Positions 25,856-34,429 of a stretch of DNA of 64,000 bases are shown piece by piece (positions within the stretch are counted from its first letter, which is position 1; every line of letters starts with the position of its first letter). A program made the translations under genes and the position numbers. Under the pieces are notes generated by a model, which was given only the letters and a program-made list of their open reading frames with translations, was not told the DNA's origin and did no database searches. The stretch is from Flavobacterium ammonificans. Its GTDB lineage: Bacteria; Bacteroidota; Bacteroidia; Flavobacteriales; Flavobacteriaceae. The stretch spans positions 1,426,001 to 1,490,000 of the forward strand of contig NZ_AP025183.1 of NCBI RefSeq assembly GCF_020885975.1, in the 5' to 3' direction.

Positions 25856-25879
25856 AAAAAGGAGAATTTCTGCCTTTTT
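25856..25879. terminator. Possible bidirectional terminator before oxyR
   Basis: AAAAAGG and CCTTTTT flank a 10-base loop, with A and T tracts on either side. The right arm overlaps the oxyR stop codon. The stem is short, so confidence is moderate. Confidence 0.5.
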
Positions 25880-26819
25880 ATTTTTTTTGTAGCGGACTAA
25901 TTATTTCAACATTTTGAAATGTAATAGCTCCTTTTATGACTCCAGAGATGGTTGTACGTAATGCATCGATGATGTGTATTTTTAATTCACTTTTTGGATA
26001 AATTAAACTCACTTCTCTAGCTGGTTTGGGCTCTTTAAAATGACGTAATTTTAACTTGTCTGCATCTTTTAAATCCAAGGTATGTAAGTATGGTAATAGA
26101 GTAGTACCTAATCCTTCGTCTGCTAATTTTATTAAAGTTTCAAAACTTCCACTTTCGATTTGAAAATGATTAATGTCATTTTTGCTGTTATTTTTACATA
26201 GATTAAGTATCCCATCTCTAAAACAATGTCCGTCTTGTAGTAAAAGAATTTCATCTATATTCAAATCTGCAACTTCAATTTCTTGTTTATTAAAATGATG
26301 ATGTTGTTCAGGGATATAAGCCACAAATGGCTCAAAGTACAACACAATTTCTTTAATTTTTTCTTCTTGTAGAGGTGTAGCAGCAATAGCGGCATCTAAA
26401 TGTCCGTTATTTAATTTAGTGATAATTTCGTCAGTATTTAATTCCTCAATTATTAATTTAACTTTGGGATATTTTTTGATAAAATTATTTAAGAACATAG
26501 GTAACAACGTAGGCATAATCGTTGGAATTATTCCTAATCTAAATTCACCCCCAATAAATCCTTTTTGTTGTTCAACGATATCTTGAATTCTGTCAGCCTC
26601 ATTCACAATATTCTTAGCTTGTGATACTATTTTAAGACCAATATCTGTCAATTGAATCGGTTTTTTTGTACGGTCAAAAATTTGAATGCTAAGTTCTTCT
26701 TCAATTTTTTGAATTTGCATACTTAGTGTTGGCTGAGTTACAAAACATTTATCTGCTGCTACTGTAAAATTCTTGTATTCGGCAACAGCCAGTACGTATT
26801 TCAATTGAGTGATTGTCAT
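25878..26819 (-). CDS. oxyR: LysR-type peroxide sensor OxyR
   Basis: The 313-residue LysR-family regulator has an N-terminal winged helix-turn-helix (about 1-60, FTVAADKCFVTQPTLSMQIQ) and a C-terminal sensing domain. The redox cysteines are at Cys199 in DGHCFRDG and Cys208 in LNLC, the same positions and spacing as the disulfide pair of E. coli OxyR. It activates oxidative-stress genes when oxidised by H2O2. It is transcribed alone from a TATATTTG promoter, and its neighbour upstream is the SbtA-type operon end. Confidence 0.93.
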   Translation of the reverse strand: MTITQLKYVLAVAEYKNFTVAADKCFVTQPTLSMQIQKIEEELSIQIFDRTKKPIQLTDIGLKIVSQAKNIVNEADRIQDIVEQQKGFIGGEFRLGIIPTIMPTLLPMFLNNFIKKYPKVKLIIEELNTDEIITKLNNGHLDAAIAATPLQEEKIKEIVLYFEPFVAYIPEQHHHFNKQEIEVADLNIDEILLLQDGHCFRDGILNLCKNNSKNDINHFQIESGSFETLIKLADEGLGTTLLPYLHTLDLKDADKLKLRHFKEPKPAREVSLIYPKSELKIHIIDALRTTISGVIKGAITFQNVEIISPLQKK

Positions 26820-26958: not shown

Positions 26959-27924
26959 TTACATAGTATTATAGATGACGGACAAATAGATAGGCATTCC
27001 TATAGTAATATTTACTGGAAATGTTACTGCTAAAGCCATTGGTAAATACAAACCAGGATTAGCTTTAGGAACAGTAATTTTCATTGTTGCTGGAACAGCT
27101 ATGTAAGAAGCACTCGCAGCAAGTATTGCAAAAATAAATCGATTGGTAATTTCATCAGTGACAAAGGAACTTAGCACAGCAAAAAGGCATCCATTGAGGA
27201 TTGGAATCACAATTGCAAAAACGAATGGAAACCATCCACAGTTAAAGAATGATTTTAATTTTTTACCGCTAGAAATTCCCATATCTAGAAGAAAAATAGC
27301 TAAAAATCCTTTAAACAAATCATTAGTAAAAGGCTTTATTCCCTCAGCTTGTTTAGCATCAGCAAAGAAGCCAATAATTAAACTTCCTAAAATTAATAGC
27401 ACACTTCCATTAGTAAGTGAATGCTTTAAAATTGACTTCTGATTAATTTTTTTCTTTTCTGAATTGTCATAATTTGATATTAGCAATAGTCCAATGATTA
27501 TTGCTGGGGATTCCATTAAAGCCATTATTGCAACCATATGGCCGTGTAGCTCCAATTGATGTGCCTCAAGATATGACACTGCAGTTACAAAAGTCACTGC
27601 ACTAACCGAACCGTAAGCCGCCGCAATAGCTCCTGCGTCAAATACATTTAATTTACGTTTTAATATAAAAAAGGTGTAACACGGTATGAAAGCTGAAATT
27701 CCGATTCCAAAAAGCATGGACCAAATAATTTCACTAGTAAATTCTTCATGCGAAAGTTCTTGCCCCCCTTTAAATCCAATTGCAAAAAGTAAGTAGAGTG
27801 ATATAAATTTTGATGAGTTCTCTGGAATTTCCAAATCACTTTTTAAGTAAACGGCAATAATTCCTAGTACAAAGAAAAGAAGGGCTGGATTTGTGAGGTT
27901 TTCAATCAGTAAATTTGTGTTCAT
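26959..27924 (-). CDS. sbtA: SbtA-type sodium-dependent bicarbonate permease
   Basis: The 321-residue protein has about ten membrane helices and matches the SbtA/DUF897 family. Family phrases include LLFAIGFKGGQELSHEE (first half), AAAYGSVSAVTFVTA, KGFLAIFLLDMGISSGKKL and ASASYIAVPATMKITVPKANPGLYLPMALAVTFPVN (second half, an inverted repeat of the first). SbtA imports bicarbonate with Na+ in cyanobacteria. It is the last gene of a tight operon with Sua5/TsaC-like and dihydroorotase-like genes and is followed by oxyR. No SbtB-type PII-like gene is visible nearby. Confidence 0.82.
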   Translation of the reverse strand: MNTNLLIENLTNPALLFFVLGIIAVYLKSDLEIPENSSKFISLYLLFAIGFKGGQELSHEEFTSEIIWSMLFGIGISAFIPCYTFFILKRKLNVFDAGAIAAAYGSVSAVTFVTAVSYLEAHQLELHGHMVAIMALMESPAIIIGLLLISNYDNSEKKKINQKSILKHSLTNGSVLLILGSLIIGFFADAKQAEGIKPFTNDLFKGFLAIFLLDMGISSGKKLKSFFNCGWFPFVFAIVIPILNGCLFAVLSSFVTDEITNRFIFAILAASASYIAVPATMKITVPKANPGLYLPMALAVTFPVNITIGMPIYLSVIYNTM

Positions 27925-27945
27925 TATTTTAATTAGTTTAATATG

Positions 27946-29298
27946 TTATCGAATTTTATCGAATTTTAATCTGATTCCGTTTTTGATCTCATTGAATTTT
28001 CCATTGGAATAGACAACCTGACCATTGACAATTGTAGATATTATTTTGCTCTTGAATATTTGATTTTCAAATGGCGACCAATCACACTTGTACAAAATAG
28101 AATTTGGTGTAACCTGCCATGGATTATTCAAATCGACTAACACTAAGTCAGCGTAGTAGCCTTCTCTAATATAGCCTCGCTCTTTTACTTTATATATTTC
28201 GGCTACATTGTGAGCTGTTTTAGCCGCTATCATCTCTAACGACATTTTGTTTTCATGGTAAAATTCAAGTAAAGCAGGTAAGGCGTGCTGAACTAGTGGT
28301 CCGCCCGACATCGCTTCAAAATAATTTCCACTTTTTTCTTCCAAAGTATGTGGCGCATGATCGGTAGCAATTATATCTATCTTTCCACTATGTAATGCAT
28401 TGAATAACCCAATTTGATTGCTTTCGGACTTAATTGATGGATTCCATTTAATTTTTGCGCCAAGATTATCGTAATCTTTATCTGAAAACCATAAATGATG
28501 GACACAAGCTTCTGCAGTAATTCGTTTTTTATGTAATGGTATTGAATTTTCAAACAACTCAGTTTCTGCACTTGTCGAAATGTGAAAAAGATGCAATCGA
28601 TTATCGTACTTTTTTGCTATATCAATTACATTTTTTGTTGTTTCATAACAAGCTTCTTCACTTCGAATTAAGGAATGGTATTTAAAAGGAATGTCATTGT
28701 TAAATTGTTGTCTGTAAAGCGCTGTGTTGTTTTTAATAATGGCATCATTTTCACTGTGCAAAGCAATTAATGTATTTGAATTAGCAAATATTTTCTCAAT
28801 ATAGTCAGGGTAATTTGCTATTATTCCATCCTCTTTAGAAAAATATAAACCGTCATCAGTAACTCCACAAACATTTTCTGTATCAGTTTTTAAAGTTTTT
28901 TCCCAATTGTCTTTGGTTAATCCCATAAAAAAAGAATAGTTTGCCAATGAGCTTTTAGAAGCTAACGCATATTTTTCTTCAAGTAGTTCATTGGTGAGTG
29001 TATTTGGCACCGTATTAGGCATATCCATAAAGGATGTAATTCCTCCCGCTACAGCTGCCCTAGATTCTGAGAAAATGGTTGCTTTATGTGTTAATCCAGG
29101 TTCTCTAAAATGAACTTGGTCGTCAATAAAACCTGGAAGTACATACAGACCTTCTGCGTTAATTTCTTCATATAAATGTCCAGCATCTAAAGAAATCGAA
29201 TGGTCAATTTTCTCTATTCTTTCATTGTTGATTAAGATATCCTTTGTTACAATTGTACCTTCATTTACAATTTTGGCGTTTCTAATAATTAGTCTCAT
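27946..29298 (-). CDS. pyrC: Dihydroorotase, Bacteroidota type
   Basis: The 450-residue amidohydrolase matches class I dihydroorotase. It cyclises carbamoyl-aspartate to dihydroorotate in pyrimidine synthesis. The usual metal motif DxHxHxR appears here as DDQVHFREPG, so the first metal-binding His is Gln61 while His63 and Arg65 remain. I recall this variant as normal for Bacteroidota. Further family motifs are MPNTVPNT, HSEN, FHIST and ATDHAPHT. It overlaps the upstream Sua5-like gene by four bases (ATGA) and lies 21 bases before sbtA. Whether it is the only pyrC in the genome or a paralogue is not visible. Confidence 0.85.
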   Translation of the reverse strand: MRLIIRNAKIVNEGTIVTKDILINNERIEKIDHSISLDAGHLYEEINAEGLYVLPGFIDDQVHFREPGLTHKATIFSESRAAVAGGITSFMDMPNTVPNTLTNELLEEKYALASKSSLANYSFFMGLTKDNWEKTLKTDTENVCGVTDDGLYFSKEDGIIANYPDYIEKIFANSNTLIALHSENDAIIKNNTALYRQQFNNDIPFKYHSLIRSEEACYETTKNVIDIAKKYDNRLHLFHISTSAETELFENSIPLHKKRITAEACVHHLWFSDKDYDNLGAKIKWNPSIKSESNQIGLFNALHSGKIDIIATDHAPHTLEEKSGNYFEAMSGGPLVQHALPALLEFYHENKMSLEMIAAKTAHNVAEIYKVKERGYIREGYYADLVLVDLNNPWQVTPNSILYKCDWSPFENQIFKSKIISTIVNGQVVYSNGKFNEIKNGIRLKFDKIR

Positions 29299-30257
29299 GA
29301 TTCTGCAACTGCTCTGTTTAATCGATCGTTAATTGATTTCCCTAAATTGATGTTTGGTAATTTTTCAATCAAAAGGATGTCTAATTGAAGAGAATCCATT
29401 TCATGTAAATACGCATATAAGTTTTTTGAAGCTTCCATAAAATCTCCAGTTGGGGATAAAACATATTGAGTTATAGGTCTATCTGTTTCTATTTTATGTT
29501 GAAATTGAAGCACACCTATTTTTTCAGTACCAAATGATTCCAATTCTTTGCGACTATCGTCTACCAGAAATGATTTGGTTGACGGTGCGTAGTGTCTTGT
29601 GAACATTCCAGGAGCACTTGGGGCAGTATTATCTTTAGTCACAATTGTAAGAGGTCCAGTGATTTTTTCAATTTCTTCTATGGCGATTGAACCATGTCGG
29701 TAAAGTATAGCTTCATTGTTATCAAAACCAATAATAGTAGATTCAATTCCATTACTACAACTTCCCCCCTCTAAAATGATATCAATTTGATCGTTAAAAT
29801 ATTGAAATACATGGTTAGTATTTGTTGGACTAATTGAACCAAATGGATTTGCGCTTGGAGCAGCAAGTGGATAATTTAAATTTTCAAGTAAATTGAGTGT
29901 CACTTTATGGTTTGGAACTCTTACTGCTACGGTATCTTTCCCAGAACTGATAAGATTGGAAATTGTTTTTTGTTTTTTTAAAACAAGTGTTAAAGGTCCT
30001 GGCCAAAAGTGACTTGCGAGTTTTTCTGCAATAGGAGGGACTTCTCTTGCAACACTAGCTAACTGATCTATTGACTTAATGTGTACAATTAATGGGTTAT
30101 TATTCGGTCTTTTTTTAATTTCAAAAATAGAATTTACGGCATTGTCATCATAAATATTGGCCGCTAATCCATATACAGTTTCAGTCGGTATAGCAATTAC
30201 TTGCCCTTTGTTTAAAGCGGCTACAGCTTTTTGAATATCTTTAGTGATTAGTGTCAT
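29295..30257 (-). CDS. Sua5/TsaC-type L-threonylcarbamoyladenylate synthase
   Basis: The 320-residue protein has the N-terminal YrdC domain (about 10-200) with GQVIAIPTETVYGLA, KKRPNNNPLIVH and PLAAPSANPFGSISPT. A C-terminal Sua5 domain follows (about 230-320), linked by the SAPGMFTRHYAP segment. This is the two-domain Sua5 form. It condenses threonine, bicarbonate and ATP into threonylcarbamoyl-AMP for t6A37 in tRNA. It sits 6 bases after the DUF6671 gene and overlaps the dihydroorotase start by four bases, so translation is probably coupled. Bicarbonate is its substrate, which fits the permease in the operon. Confidence 0.9.
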   Translation of the reverse strand: MTLITKDIQKAVAALNKGQVIAIPTETVYGLAANIYDDNAVNSIFEIKKRPNNNPLIVHIKSIDQLASVAREVPPIAEKLASHFWPGPLTLVLKKQKTISNLISSGKDTVAVRVPNHKVTLNLLENLNYPLAAPSANPFGSISPTNTNHVFQYFNDQIDIILEGGSCSNGIESTIIGFDNNEAILYRHGSIAIEEIEKITGPLTIVTKDNTAPSAPGMFTRHYAPSTKSFLVDDSRKELESFGTEKIGVLQFQHKIETDRPITQYVLSPTGDFMEASKNLYAYLHEMDSLQLDILLIEKLPNINLGKSINDRLNRAVAES

Positions 30258-30263
30258 AAATAG

Positions 30264-31100
30264 TTAAGGATTGCAATAGTCACAATACATTGGATCTTCT
30301 GATTTTTTATTATTTGGGTACATTTTTTCTAATGAGTAGTTGCATTTTTTGCAGCAATACAATAGACTAAGTATGGATTGAGTTGCAGAATTACATTGGC
30401 TACAAGCTAACCCTCTTTTTACACTAGCAACATCAAATCCCGGACAAGCGCATTGAGGACATTCATTCTTAATTTTATCAACCAGTTTTCGAGTAGTTTT
30501 TTCAATTACATTCATTCTAGTTGGATTGTAATTGGCTCTCATATCAGTTTCAACATAAGCCTTGCCAAATTCTTGTTTTAGATTTTCAAATGTTTCAATA
30601 AGTTCATCCTCGTTTGTAATTCCTTTGTATATTTTTTCCCATTTTTCCTTATCAGATTTTAAAATTAATCCATGCGATGGAAAATGAACCCGTTTGGCAA
30701 ATTCTAGTAATTCGTCTTTTTCTGAAACAAATTGAGCATTGAAATTAGTATCTGTTACTAATTCACTAGCCGTAATTTCTAAATTGTTTTTTAAATCAAT
30801 TAATATTAAAAACTCCTCATTGCCAGGTAAAAAAAATACTGAAGGATGAGCTCCAAAAGAGCCTTCACTTGCTATAGCTAGATCAACATTATGAAGATCC
30901 ATAGCTTGTAAACATTTTTTTTTGAGAGTAGTGATTACGTCATCCTTTCTATCGATTTCCCCACTAAAAGTCCCCAAACTATCGGTATCGAAAAGTGTGT
31001 TGATTTCACTAATTACTCCTAACTCACTTTCAATTATAGGAGAAATTACTTTCTCTTTTTTATGTTTTGTTGCAATAAGTAGTTTACGACCTTGAAACAT
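30264..31100 (-). CDS. DUF6671 family protein with Cys-rich C-terminus
   Basis: The 278-residue protein matches DUF6671, known to me also from cyanobacteria. No function is established. Conserved-looking motifs are LLIATKHKKEKVISPI at the start, FDTDSLGTFSGE, IASEGSFGAHPS near residue 80 and VETDMRANYNPTRMNVIEK near 190-208. The C-terminal 65 residues hold four CxxC pairs (CPQC, CSQC, CKKC, CDYC) that look like two zinc ribbons. It lies 2 bases after the 91-residue gene and 6 bases before the Sua5 gene. Confidence 0.72.
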   Translation of the reverse strand: MFQGRKLLIATKHKKEKVISPIIESELGVISEINTLFDTDSLGTFSGEIDRKDDVITTLKKKCLQAMDLHNVDLAIASEGSFGAHPSVFFLPGNEEFLILIDLKNNLEITASELVTDTNFNAQFVSEKDELLEFAKRVHFPSHGLILKSDKEKWEKIYKGITNEDELIETFENLKQEFGKAYVETDMRANYNPTRMNVIEKTTRKLVDKIKNECPQCACPGFDVASVKRGLACSQCNSATQSILSLLYCCKKCNYSLEKMYPNNKKSEDPMYCDYCNP

Positions 31101-31102
31101 TC

Positions 31103-31378
31103 TTATTTAAATTTTACTTCGAAATGACAATTGAGTTCAACACTTAAGTTTTTTGAATTCGCTTCAGTCAATAATTGATTTATTTTAGTCTTAATTTCAT
31201 TCAATTGTTCAATTCTAATTTTAGAATGTGAACTATCAGAATTGAATCGAATACTATTACTAAAATCTTCTAAATTGTGAAAGTTAATTTTACTATTTAT
31301 CAATGAATTAATTACTGTTTTGGCTTCTTCAGGATTGAAATTTCCATTTACTAATTCAAATTCAAATTCATTTTCCAT
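31103..31378 (-). CDS. Small cytoplasmic protein of the SbtA operon, unknown
   Basis: I do not recognise a family. The 91-residue product (MENEFEFELVNGNFNPEEAK) has no membrane segment or signal peptide. It appears to be a mixed alpha/beta protein ending in a beta-type strand (LSVELNCHFEVKFK). It lies 3 bases after the 70-residue gene and 2 bases before the DUF6671 gene, so it is part of the operon. Its size and position would suit a regulatory or scaffold partner, but this is speculation. Confidence 0.6.
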   Translation of the reverse strand: MENEFEFELVNGNFNPEEAKTVINSLINSKINFHNLEDFSNSIRFNSDSSHSKIRIEQLNEIKTKINQLLTEANSKNLSVELNCHFEVKFK

Positions 31379-31381
31379 TAG

Positions 31382-31591
31382 TTAAAGTTTAATTTTTAAG
31401 ATTTTTAATAAGTAGGTTGCAATAAGCAAGGATGTTCCAAGAATACTAATTGACCATAAAGAAAATTCAAACAGAATGTTTGTAATTAACCCAATTATTA
31501 AAACGAAAAGGATTAATAAATAGGTAAATTTTGAGTTTGTTATCAAATAGTTTAAAATAATTTTTTTAATTTTTGAAACAATATTTTTCAT
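31382..31591 (-). CDS. Small two-helix membrane protein, first gene of the SbtA operon
   Basis: From the ATG at 31591 the product is 69 residues, with a basic N-terminus (MKNIVSKIKKIILN) and two membrane helices (about 22-42 and 46-64). No family is recognised. A TTG one codon earlier is possible. It is divergent from the LysR gene across 82 bases and begins a run of six genes separated by at most 21 bases. Confidence 0.55.
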   Translation of the reverse strand: MKNIVSKIKKIILNYLITNSKFTYLLILFVLIIGLITNILFEFSLWSISILGTSLLIATYLLKILKIKL

Positions 31592-31641
31592 CAATTCCTA
31601 TTTTTGACAAATTTCCTTTTTTTTATGTATATATTTTTATT

Positions 31642-31664
31642 TATATTTGTTATAAAACTTATAA
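31642..31664 (+). promoter_or_regulatory. Putative LysR-gene promoter with overlapping palindrome
   Basis: TATATTTG at 31642-31649 matches the -7 consensus, 24 bases before the LysR ATG. Directly after it lies the palindrome TTATAA-AAC-TTATAA (31650-31664), near the expected transcription start. It could be an autoregulatory LysR site controlling the divergent operon as well. AT richness makes chance palindromes likely here. Confidence 0.35.
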
Positions 31665-31673
31665 ATTAATCTT

Positions 31674-32597
31674 ATGAATTATACTCTACATCAATTAAAA
31701 GTTTTTTTGAAAGTTTCAAAAACTAGAAGTATTACTAAGGCTGCAGAGGAGTTAAATCTTTCTCAACCGGCGGTATCCATTCAATTAAAAAATTTACAAG
31801 ATCAATTTGAGATACCTTTAACAGAAGTTATTGGTAGACAGCTTTATATAACTGATTTTGGAAAAGAAATTGCAATTGCTGTTGAGCAAATCGTAAATGA
31901 GGTTAATAAAATTAATTATAAGTCACTGGCATATAAAGGGATTATGTCTGGTGTTTTAAAAATTTCAGTTGTTTCTACCGGTAAGTACGTAATGCCATTT
32001 TATTTATCTGATTTTATGAATGCCAATAAAGGGATTGAATTAGAAATGGATGTAACAAATAAAACAAAAGTAATTACAGCTCTAAAGAATAATGAAATCG
32101 ATTTTGCATTAGTGTCTAGCATTCCAGATGATATCAATTTAGAATTTGAATCCTTAATGGAAAATAAATTATTTCTTGTTGGGGGAAAGCAAATACGATA
32201 TAGTGATGAGTTTAAGATGAAAACTCTTCTTCAAGACATTCCATTAATTTTTAGAGAAGAGGGTTCGGCTACTAGATTGTATATGGAAGAATACATTAAA
32301 AATAAAGGGTTAGTTGTAAAAAGCAAACTCCAACTCACATCAAATGAAGCTGTAAAACAAGCAGTAATATCCGGTTTAGGAGTTTCCATTATGCCTTTGA
32401 TTGGGTTGAAGAATGAGCTAGAAAGAGGTGACATAAAAATAATTCAGTTTGAAGATTTACCTATGATTTCTAATTGGAAATTAATATGGCTAAAGGATAA
32501 AAAAATGAGCCCTGTAGCACAAGCTTATCTAACTTATTTACAAGCAGAAAAATTAAGAATTAATGAAAGTGTTTTTTCTTGGATTAATAATTACTAG
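31674..32597 (+). CDS. LysR-family regulator, CbbR/CmpR-like
   Basis: The 307-residue protein has a LysR helix-turn-helix (about 1-60; SITKAAEELNLSQPAVSIQLKNL) and a substrate-binding domain with the phrases REEGSATR and GLGVSIMPLIGL. These are typical of the CbbR/CysB-like subgroup that controls carbon fixation and inorganic-carbon uptake genes. It is divergent from the SbtA operon, the usual arrangement of a LysR regulator and its target. The ligand is unknown. Its stop codon shares the sequence CTAG with the stop of the convergent LETM1-related gene. Confidence 0.82.
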   Translation: MNYTLHQLKVFLKVSKTRSITKAAEELNLSQPAVSIQLKNLQDQFEIPLTEVIGRQLYITDFGKEIAIAVEQIVNEVNKINYKSLAYKGIMSGVLKISVVSTGKYVMPFYLSDFMNANKGIELEMDVTNKTKVITALKNNEIDFALVSSIPDDINLEFESLMENKLFLVGGKQIRYSDEFKMKTLLQDIPLIFREEGSATRLYMEEYIKNKGLVVKSKLQLTSNEAVKQAVISGLGVSIMPLIGLKNELERGDIKIIQFEDLPMISNWKLIWLKDKKMSPVAQAYLTYLQAEKLRINESVFSWINNY

Positions 32598-33790
32598 TCC
32601 TCTAAATTTTCATTAAATGACGAAGGAAGCATTGTTGGAATAAATTTAATCAGCAATGGCAATAGTAAACTTCCTCCTGGTAAAAGAAATATAGTTAGCG
32701 ATGGAATAGTTTTACAAACATCAAGAATTTGTTTTTTTATCTTCTTTTTCTCCTTTTCGTCTAAATCTCTTGTGGTTGAAATAGCTATAAGCATCATTAA
32801 TTCTTTACTTTGAACAATTTCTTTTACCAATCTAGTTTTGTTTCTAGCAAGTAATGTGAGGACACTTTGAGTAGTATGCTCGTAAAAATGCTTTACAGGA
32901 TTAGAATAATTAAAGTATGGGATATTTTTCTTGTGCTTAGAAATGAATTGATTTGTTTTGAGAACACTTTGATCTACAAATTCTTCTGATATTGAGAGTT
33001 TTGCAGCTAATTCCTTTAAAAAGAATAACTCATTGGAATCTAATACGCCGTCATTCCACATTGCCATACCCGCAATATCAATTAAATATTTTTTTTCAAG
33101 TTCATCGGTAAAGTACTCTAGTTGAAAACTATCTAGATTTAATTTGGTTGGAGCAGAAAATTTGCTGTAGCGAATTGATGCTTCAAAAAGTTTGATCAGC
33201 AAGTCATCATATTGAGATTTATCTGATTTCACCTTTAATGCCAAAGTCACAATATTCACAATGGTTTCTTCAATTCTTTTGAGATATTTTTCAGGTATAT
33301 TGCCGTGAATTAAAAATTGACGAAATCCTAAAACATCAATAAATAAAAGTGCATTTGTAACTAAGTGAGAGAAATTTTTGATGATACTATTCTCATTAGT
33401 TTGCACTCTTTCATCAATGAATTTTTCAAGTGTTAGCGAAGGACTATTTTTCGGAAGTAACTTTTTGAATAAGTTAAAACCTTCAGGATGCATTTCGTTG
33501 TAATATGATACAGTTTTCTCAATGAATTCAGACCAGTTTAACGTATCATTAGTTAATAAATATACTTCCAAAAGCGAGTTGAATAACGCTACTTTTGAAA
33601 CCTCTTCTTTAAACCAACCTTGAATTGGAATAGGAGTGTTGGTATGAAGTGCAATGATATGACCGTAGATAAAACCCGATGTTTGTAGGGATTCATAAAA
33701 TGAACTACTATCGGAAACCAATTCCATTTCTGAAATTTTTTGTTCGCTATAAAATTTAGCAATCCATCCTGGAACTGAAGGGTTAATCAT
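32594..33790 (-). CDS. LETM1-related biofilm-associated protein
   Basis: The 398-residue protein matches a Bacteroidota family annotated as LETM1-related biofilm-associated protein. Its middle (about 210-290) contains a TerB-like helical segment (FTDELEKKYLIDIAGMAMWNDGVLDSNE), and the C-terminus has the LETM1-type PSLTIFLLPGGSLLLPLLIKFIP hydrophobic stretch. Mitochondrial LETM1 is an inner-membrane ion-exchange or ribosome-binding protein; the bacterial role is not established. Its last codons overlap the LysR gene by four bases, tail to tail. Confidence 0.7.
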   Translation of the reverse strand: MINPSVPGWIAKFYSEQKISEMELVSDSSSFYESLQTSGFIYGHIIALHTNTPIPIQGWFKEEVSKVALFNSLLEVYLLTNDTLNWSEFIEKTVSYYNEMHPEGFNLFKKLLPKNSPSLTLEKFIDERVQTNENSIIKNFSHLVTNALLFIDVLGFRQFLIHGNIPEKYLKRIEETIVNIVTLALKVKSDKSQYDDLLIKLFEASIRYSKFSAPTKLNLDSFQLEYFTDELEKKYLIDIAGMAMWNDGVLDSNELFFLKELAAKLSISEEFVDQSVLKTNQFISKHKKNIPYFNYSNPVKHFYEHTTQSVLTLLARNKTRLVKEIVQSKELMMLIAISTTRDLDEKEKKKIKKQILDVCKTIPSLTIFLLPGGSLLLPLLIKFIPTMLPSSFNENLED

Positions 33791-33852
33791 TAATGCAAAT
33801 TAAAATACAAAGCTATGTTTTTTTCTTGTTCCAAAGATGAAATAAAAAATAA

Positions 33853-33886
33853 AAAACCGTTTTGTATCAATTCACAAAACGGTTTT
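33853..33886 (-). terminator. Terminator of sodC
   Basis: AAAACCGTTTTGT and ACAAAACGGTTTT form a 13-base stem with an 8-base loop, followed on the minus strand by a T-rich tract, 21 bases past the sodC stop. Confidence 0.85.
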
Positions 33887-33907
33887 ATATACGATTTACA
33901 AATGCAA

Positions 33908-34429
33908 CTATTTTATTATAGCTGAGCAAGCTATTCGTGCTCCAGAATTTCCTGTAGGTTGTGATACAAAATCATCTTTGTCTTTATGAACAATAAGACT
34001 CTTGCCTGTAACATCTTTAGTTGGATCATCACAACCAATACACCACTCATCAGTAGTTAAAGTTATTGTTCCATTTCCATTTTCATCAGCTGTAAAGTTA
34101 CCTATATCTCCTTTGTGGTATTCTCCTTCGGCCCATTTTCCATGCTTTTTAAAAGTAGGATTCCAATGTCCACCTGCCGAACTACCATCTGCTGCTGAAC
34201 AATCTGATTTTTCATGGATGTGTATTGCATGAACACCTGGCTGTAATCCTGAAAGTTTAGCTTCAAAAGTAACTTTACCTTTATTTTCAATAAAAGTTGC
34301 AGTTCCCGTTACATTACTATTGCTTTTAGCTTCAAAATTTAATCGCAATTGTTTGGTGTTTTTCGACACTGTTTTGCAACCAATAATTACAACGATAATT
34401 AAGACAATTGAAAAGATTATTTTTTTCAT
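33908..34429 (-). CDS. sodC: Cu/Zn superoxide dismutase lipoprotein
   Basis: The 173-residue protein has a lipoprotein signal with the attachment Cys near residue 18 (VIIGCKT). Metal ligands of the Cu/Zn SOD fold are visible: HAIHIHEKSDC (two Cu His), AGGHWNP (bridging His), KKHGKW and YHKGDIGN (Zn site), LIVHKDKDD (Cu His), and the active-site Arg in SGARIACSAI. It dismutates superoxide in the periplasm or at the outer membrane. An extra CIGC pair precedes the last Cu ligand. It is transcribed alone. Confidence 0.93.
   Translation of the reverse strand: MKKIIFSIVLIIVVIIGCKTVSKNTKQLRLNFEAKSNSNVTGTATFIENKGKVTFEAKLSGLQPGVHAIHIHEKSDCSAADGSSAGGHWNPTFKKHGKWAEGEYHKGDIGNFTADENGNGTITLTTDEWCIGCDDPTKDVTGKSLIVHKDKDDFVSQPTGNSGARIACSAIIK

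Follow-up and report, generated by a model that had tools for sequence, protein, structure and literature searches.

In the 64,000-nucleotide stretch of the Flavobacterium ammonificans genome analysed here (contig NZ_AP025183.1, positions 1,426,001 to 1,490,000; hereafter the window), six genes divergent from a LysR-type regulator gene were found to form a locus that probably represents a LysR-controlled operon for CO2/bicarbonate limitation, including CO2-sparing isozymes, in a bacterium without RuBisCO. The genome is a single contig of 2.27 Mb, and one search of it with the RuBisCO large chain gave no match. The six genes are tightly packed on the minus strand in the order small membrane protein (31382..31594), 91-amino-acid protein (31103..31378), DUF6671 protein (30264..31100), Sua5 (29295..30257), dihydroorotase (27946..29298) and SbtA (26959..27924), with intergenic gaps of 3, 2, 6, -4 and 21 bases, and the LysR gene (31674..32597) lies on the plus strand. 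This arrangement, including the gaps, agreed exactly with an earlier note on this DNA when the open reading frames (ORFs) were checked. The same note had proposed that the grouping serves inorganic-carbon limitation, and this was supported by the presence of DabAB, SulP and carbonic anhydrase genes within the unit or beside its operator in other genomes, by the kinship of the regulator and by the conserved neighbourhood.

According to the proposed mechanism, the LysR protein would bind an operator between its own gene and the operon, and would respond to a metabolite reporting the inorganic-carbon status of the cell, by analogy perhaps 2-oxoglutarate or NADP+. The operon would then raise the bicarbonate supply via SbtA, a task for which relatives would use DabAB, SulP or carbonic anhydrase encoded in the unit. 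A lysine-free dihydroorotase would be swapped in, in which an Asp motif takes the place of the metal-bridging carboxylated lysine, whose formation needs CO2; the bicarbonate-consuming tRNA threonylcarbamoyladenosine (t6A) step would be served at low CO2 by an extra Sua5. The DUF6671 protein would be a nucleotide-binding enzyme linked to bicarbonate-using steps, with the 91-amino-acid protein and its small membrane partner as putative accessories.

The regulator and its predicted operator

The regulator contains the HTH_1 and LysR_substrate domains (Pfam), and its best solved match over residues 1-292 of 307 was 5y2v, the "Rubisco operon transcriptional regulator" (E 1e-53), which we take to be NdhR/CcmR. 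Four solved sequences, 5y2v, 5y2w, CmpR 5z49 and 8sbf, were found at E ≤ 1e-20, and three of these four are carbon-limitation regulators, a proportion that applies to solved structures only. The score against the NCBIfam CbbR model (NF045990) was 172.4 bits, below the cut-off of 450, so the term "CbbR-like" used in the earlier note is correct for the wider family and does not extend to the CbbR equivalog.

The gaps between LysR genes and operons in many Bacteroidota contained a common 43-bp motif with the consensus TTTATGTATTTCATTACAAATATAAATAAAAATTTATGAATTA, located mostly 8 bp before the LysR gene. The predicted operator of the window (31623..31665, minus strand) is located 8 bp upstream of the start codon of LysR and scored 32.9 bits with a matrix of 33 sequences that excluded the window (L093 and L094 being out of register owing to their short pieces), against 6.2 bits for the best independent site in the 64 kb; the next scores in the window, 9.8 and 8.1, belonged to positions overlapping the operator itself. 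In 133 loci (1,954,488 bases), 55 sites exceeded 16 bits, and 52 of them stood directly before LysR, a unit gene or one of the unit's small ORFs. The other three preceded uncharacterised ORFs in the same loci (L071 and the second sites of L120 and L096), the ORF of L071 leading to a pyrC-sua5-DUF6671 run. Many of the 55 sites had been used to train the matrix and so have scores that carry no independent weight; this does not apply to the lack of sites in the remaining parts of the loci.

Thirteen site rows (12 distinct) had no adjacent LysR gene; these include sites before dabB and the 91-amino-acid protein gene in L038, before the isocitrate dehydrogenase (IDH) gene in L035 and L037, and before Sua5 in L082 and L089, with dabBA (L038), IDH-DUF6671 (L035) and Sua5-SbtA (L082) included in the targets. 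A whole-genome pattern search of five genomes, allowing at most one mismatch (0 to 2 hits per genome with the reversed control), detected the operon site in each, and in G285 a second site of 39.7 bits was located before a relocated IDH gene.

In 20 of 55 rows the operator was immediately followed by IDH, more often than by any other gene. CcmR senses 2-oxoglutarate, its co-repressor, and NADP+ (PMC3401165), and by analogy these effectors would fit the frequent IDH gene. The same observations, together with the relationship of the regulator to 5y2v, could be explained by a carbon-nitrogen balance operon, in which LysR senses 2-oxoglutarate, IDH is the core target and the bicarbonate genes follow. 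This alternative seems unlikely to us, since the window locus has no IDH gene and the genome no close copy of one (best 31%), while SbtA, Sua5 and pyrC stay. Moreover, it overlaps with control by inorganic carbon, for which 2-oxoglutarate may be a proxy signal.

At six loci of several Flavobacterium species (L044, L045, L047, L049-L051), a TetR-like regulator occupies the place of LysR before the unit.

SbtA and the conserved neighbourhood

The SbtA protein matched Sbt_1 (PF05982) over nearly its whole length with 388.7 bits against a cut-off of 27 and is homologous to the Slr1512 SbtA protein 7cye (E 6.9e-27); it is a likely bicarbonate importer. The genome carries one SbtA gene and one DUF6671 gene. 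DUF6671 is rare, being found in 3 of 149 genomes of a family sample and 12 of 395 genomes of a phylum sample (some matches partial), and SbtA was present in 90 of the same 395. SbtA occurred in 7 of the 12 DUF6671 genomes versus 83 of the 383 others, and the two genes lay less than 3 kb apart in six of the seven shared genomes, those of G289 being on separate contigs.

A scan of named genomes yielded 98 DUF6671 relatives. Eighty loci were retained from these, ten of them shorter than 8 kb; a 93-locus set was also defined, from which L039 (G195, DUF6671 copy partial) and L042, which gave no BLAST hit, were excluded. At a distance of up to six genes from DUF6671, the 80 loci contained SbtA (38), pyrC (38), a member of the 91/80-amino-acid protein family (35), Sua5 (30), LysR (30), IDH (24), carbonic anhydrase (12), SulP (6) and DabAB (1). 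SbtA, DabAB, SulP or carbonic anhydrase was present at this distance in 41 loci, and an inorganic-carbon transporter, carbonic anhydrase, pyrC or sua5 was near DUF6671 in 61. DabAB was found in two further DUF6671 loci outside this count (L034 and L038), and in L120 DabB-DabA lies directly upstream of DUF6671 (Pfam-confirmed). Enzymes that use bicarbonate were also among the neighbours: phosphoenolpyruvate carboxylase (PEPC) with PurK and PurE (PEPcase_2-PurK-PurE) upstream of DUF6671 in L107, PEPcase downstream of it in L006, and carbamoyl-phosphate synthase (CarB) adjoining SbtA in L040, all confirmed with Pfam, as well as purE-like genes, assigned by eye, upstream of DUF6671 in L115 and L116. 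The neighbourhood is not confined to this strain, an outcome that the earlier note had named as refuting its proposal: further examples come from Flavobacteriaceae, Chitinophagaceae and other Bacteroidota.

In its fullest form, the unit has the order LysR, IDH, small proteins, DUF6671, Sua5, pyrC and SbtA, with carbonic anhydrase and SulP genes nearby, and this full complement was found in few loci only. In L084, L090 and L108, a version with IDH and carbonic anhydrase-SulP, that of L108 being without SbtA, lies between the LETM1-like and OxyR-like genes that also flank the window locus. Because the same flanks enclose these genes there, IDH and carbonic anhydrase-SulP were probably lost from the window locus or relocated.

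At 19 loci, pyrC lies upstream of DUF6671 in a single run (pyrC-DUF6671 or pyrC-sua5-DUF6671), with SbtA in one of them, L055. Such runs, mostly without the operator, would suit a pyrimidine/tRNA-modification operon tied to growth rate, to which SbtA belongs incidentally. We regard this as quite improbable, given that other genomes have DabAB, SulP and carbonic anhydrase genes in the unit, some with the operator, and that DUF6671 is also found beside PEPC and PurK/PurE.

To return to the likely bicarbonate importer, 40 loci centred on SbtA were hand-picked from the 90 SbtA genomes, G195 being included with knowledge of its DUF6671 and G214, G285, G481 and G345 being left out. In 16 of the 40, SbtA was at least 59% identical to that of the window, and nine of these 16 had LysR, IDH or the 91/80-amino-acid family within five genes. 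A same-strand gene for a protein of 93-111 amino acids directly followed SbtA in 16 of the other 24 loci and in none of these 16; we assume it to be SbtB-like by eye, not from a profile, and on this assumption the window SbtA belongs to a clade without an adjacent SbtB-like gene. Small CutA/PII-like proteins, recognised by eye, are encoded inside the unit in L099 (7100-7399) and L103 (6859-7170) and could be signal proteins of SbtA.

Several other features were noticed around these loci. In the window, the operon is bordered at 25878-26819 and 32594-34429 by genes for an OxyR-like LysR, a LETM1-related protein and a superoxide-dismutase-like lipoprotein (by eye). In L110 and L111, what appear by eye to be a sigma factor and carotenoid genes come after DUF6671, and in the Winogradskyella loci L072, L075 and L086 a RecG-like gene (by eye) stands directly upstream of it. 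The DUF6671 copy of L004/L005 (G140:C37) extends across two frames with a stop, possibly reflecting a frameshift, decay or an assembly error.

The dihydroorotase without the carboxylysine motif

The operon dihydroorotase scored 624.3 bits against the equivalog cut-off of 535 (NF006688, NCBIfam) and 85.8 bits with Amidohydro_1 (Pfam). The genome contains three dihydroorotase-like genes of some length plus three short matches. The earlier note had asked for a second pyrC copy, and the genome does have a further complete dihydroorotase of this type at C1:343421 (L008). Both this copy and Porphyromonas gingivalis 2gwn, whose lysine is presumably carboxylated, carry the motif G-x-K-x-F-L-G-S-S-T-G. 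The operon enzyme has TDDGLYF (codons at 28840..28860, minus strand) in place of G-x-K-x-F-L/M-G-S-S-T-G, so that the carboxylysine Lys is missing, and its His/Asp motifs are those of the lysine-form copy; the third homologue (418 amino acids) lacks the ligand motifs.

Zur-controlled paralogue clusters contain spare copies of zinc enzymes, and the locus could by comparison be viewed as a zinc-shortage operon with spare zinc enzymes and a Cys-rich protein. Dihydroorotase and carbonic anhydrase are zinc enzymes, and the C-terminal Cys residues of DUF6671, seven invariant and one nearly so, would agree with this. The explanation was nevertheless rejected as very improbable: the operon dihydroorotase keeps the His/Asp ligand motifs of the other copy and is without the lysine motif only, the regulator is a LysR near a solved carbon regulator and not Zur, and no zinc logic is evident for SbtA, DabAB, SulP, PEPC and PurK.

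Among the pyrC genes of the other loci, [ST]DDGLYF without the lysine motif was found in 41 of 41 readable rows (42 rows with one cut, and one repeat, L162 repeating L037), where pyrC pieces of up to 250 amino acids (L089, L092) were excluded and L100 was unreadable. Among 14 genomes typed, 13 had the lysine form and nine of these also the lysine-free form (that of G537 read from L056), the 52% copy of G537 and weak matches (E 1e-25 or weaker) being left untyped. A tree of 55 rows separated the lysine and lysine-free forms by a single branch with support of 99/98. The dihydroorotases of F. caseinilyticum (G536, L045) and F. petrolei (G539, L085) are 91% identical to the window genome's own.

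A scan of the 395 phylum genomes for the exact motif, by which variants are missed, gave 27 lysine-free sites in 24 genomes, and eight with the reversed-pattern control. Four of the 27 lay within dihydroorotases (G000, G259, G285 and G195), all in genomes belonging to the 12 with DUF6671; nine of the 27 loci had no ORF of at least 80 amino acids with the motif, and the rest gave no match in the reference set at E 1e-3. With the window genome set aside, three of three motif-bearing dihydroorotases fell within the 11 DUF6671 genomes out of 394, an event with a chance probability of about 2e-5 if relatedness is ignored.

The dihydroorotases of E. coli and human have a carboxylated lysine at this position, which forms a bridge between two zinc ions, and Aquifex (type-I, Asp153) and Staphylococcus aureus have Asp instead, with the lysine shifted upstream relative to the Asp (PMC3880350). 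The operon enzyme resembles that of Aquifex in the lack of the Lys motif and in an Asp-Asp-Gly slightly downstream of the Lys position, which PMC3880350 describes for Aquifex and S. aureus, and differs in being a second NF006688 isozyme that accompanies a lysine-form copy and is located in a carbon-supply operon. A carboxylated lysine needs CO2, and judging from its motifs the active site of the operon form can apparently do without it. For connecting pyrC with carbon limitation, as the earlier note did, the better reason is the loss of the carboxylysine motif, not the position of the step after carbamoyl phosphate.

Sua5, DUF6671 and the small proteins

The operon Sua5, a threonylcarbamoyl-AMP synthase, contains Sua5_yciO_yrdC (PF01300, 207.2 bits) and Sua5_C (PF03481, 85.4 bits), both over the cut-off. 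Sua5 uses bicarbonate as a substrate in the t6A step. It is one of three Sua5/YrdC-like genes in the genome, the other two being located at C1:1762047 and C1:2082904, so the additional copies that the earlier note proposed to look for do exist. The bicarbonate substrate and the status of an extra copy suggest that it may act as a low-CO2 isozyme.

The DUF6671 protein (Pfam, 330.6 bits) gave a model from 70 sequences with a predicted local distance difference test (pLDDT) score of 93.5. Residues 4-212 are similar to inosine triphosphate pyrophosphatase (ITPase)/HAM1 and YjjX, superposing on RdgB 2q16 (Z 13.1, 123 residues, 3.4 Å) and YjjX 1u5w (Z 12.5, 117 residues, 2.6 Å) at 12-14% identity. 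Unlike these proteins, DUF6671 has an insert at about residues 120-195 that resembles ATP-grasp structures over about 66 residues only, namely the bicarbonate-bound biotin carboxylase domain 7kbl (Z 9.0, 66 aligned, 1.9 Å) and cyanophycin synthetase 7wae (Z 9.6, 67 aligned, 2.0 Å), and a C-terminal region with the eight conserved Cys. The Foldseek matches were weak (best E 8.7e-4), and the sequence profile found no ATP-grasp chain in the PDB up to E 10; the four chains that it did retrieve within this limit, the best at 0.035 over the Cys-rich end, were not usable. Invariant charged residues (n = 70), among others K12, H13, E79, H85, E96, K159, E184, D186, R188 and R195, look enzymatic. We regard DUF6671 as probably a nucleotide-binding enzyme connected with steps that use bicarbonate. 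The statement in the earlier note that the family is shared with cyanobacteria was not borne out by Synechococcus elongatus, the single cyanobacterial genome searched, which gave no match.

The 91-amino-acid protein was modelled with AlphaFold as a beta-alpha-alpha-beta hairpin (pLDDT 93.2) with no convincing solved match (Foldseek best E 0.34); neither this search nor the DUF6671 profile search speaks against other folds. The small membrane protein has two predicted transmembrane stretches and comprises 70 amino acids from a TTG start, or 69 from the adjacent ATG (31591). Neither of the two proteins matched a Pfam or NCBIfam family above the cut-off. A small ORF with one or two transmembrane stretches directly precedes the 91-amino-acid protein gene in 18 rows besides the window (L037 and L162 representing the same region).

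Weight of the evidence

A number of observations weigh against a dedicated response to CO2 limitation. Most SbtA genomes (83 of 90) have no DUF6671, and just one of the 40 SbtA-centred loci contains it, that of the knowingly included G195. No SbtA, Dab, SulP, carbonic anhydrase, pyrC or sua5 gene is nearby in 19 of the 80 DUF6671 loci, and for six of the 41 linked pyrC rows the distance to DUF6671 is 3.8-7.6 kb. In the window genome, a strong site was found at the operon only, with one other weak place of 13.0 bits, and the single beta-carbonic anhydrase gene lies elsewhere, beside a SulP-like gene (by eye), with no strong site in the surrounding 3.45 kb. Among the 19 pyrC-before-DUF6671 runs, L071 alone has a site above 16 bits (less than 300 bases of upstream DNA being available for L068 and L100), and because of this the lysine-free dihydroorotase appears often not to be under this LysR. 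Four of the 14 typed genomes (G214, G481, G230 and G541) have DUF6671 with the lysine form only. In G259 (100% complete), only the lysine-free form was found, which suggests that it works there as the sole enzyme; since it is also ordinary elsewhere, as in S. aureus (PMC3880350), having the lysine-free form is not by itself proof of a CO2-related role.

A bolder version of the proposal, which we put forward tentatively and with considerable doubt, is that heterotrophic Bacteroidota possess an enzyme-replacement response to CO2 limitation, in which an NdhR-like LysR would switch on bicarbonate import together with CO2-freed isozymes, namely the dihydroorotase without carboxylysine and the extra Sua5, in a manner likened to zinc-sparing paralogues. 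DUF6671 would then be a new ATP-using, bicarbonate-handling enzyme with an ITPase core and an ATP-grasp-type lid.

Relation to known systems and significance

The closest parallel is the cyanobacterial CcmR/NdhR regulon, with which the locus shares a LysR of the same wider family, a site beside the regulator's own gene and an SbtA-family protein as the likely target. In contrast to that regulon, RuBisCO and an SbtB-like gene directly after SbtA are absent here, and Sua5, the lysine-free dihydroorotase and DUF6671 are present, joined by IDH in relatives. Among non-autotrophs, S. aureus needs an inorganic-carbon supply by MpsAB for growth at air-level CO2 (PMC6689103). The occurrence of DabAB before DUF6671 in L120, L034 and L038 is similar to such MpsAB/DabAB heterotrophs, whereas the window has SbtA, and here the supply is paired with extra isozymes and a dedicated LysR and operator. 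The parts of the unit are known. Among the open-licence papers listed in the searches, no title or abstract opening described the unit, and neither its combination nor the operator, the placing of a lysine-free isozyme in an operon for carbon supply or the link to DUF6671 was met.

Carbon-limitation regulons have been studied mostly in autotrophs, and less is known of how heterotrophs cope with low CO2. The unit described here supplies a regulator, a predicted operator and a list of targets, which makes this question testable in cultivable Flavobacteria. If the proposal is true, a paralogue that is retained next to the normal copy but has given up a CO2-derived active-site group would represent a new kind of nutrient-sparing isozyme, and the uncharacterised DUF6671 family would gain its first functional context.

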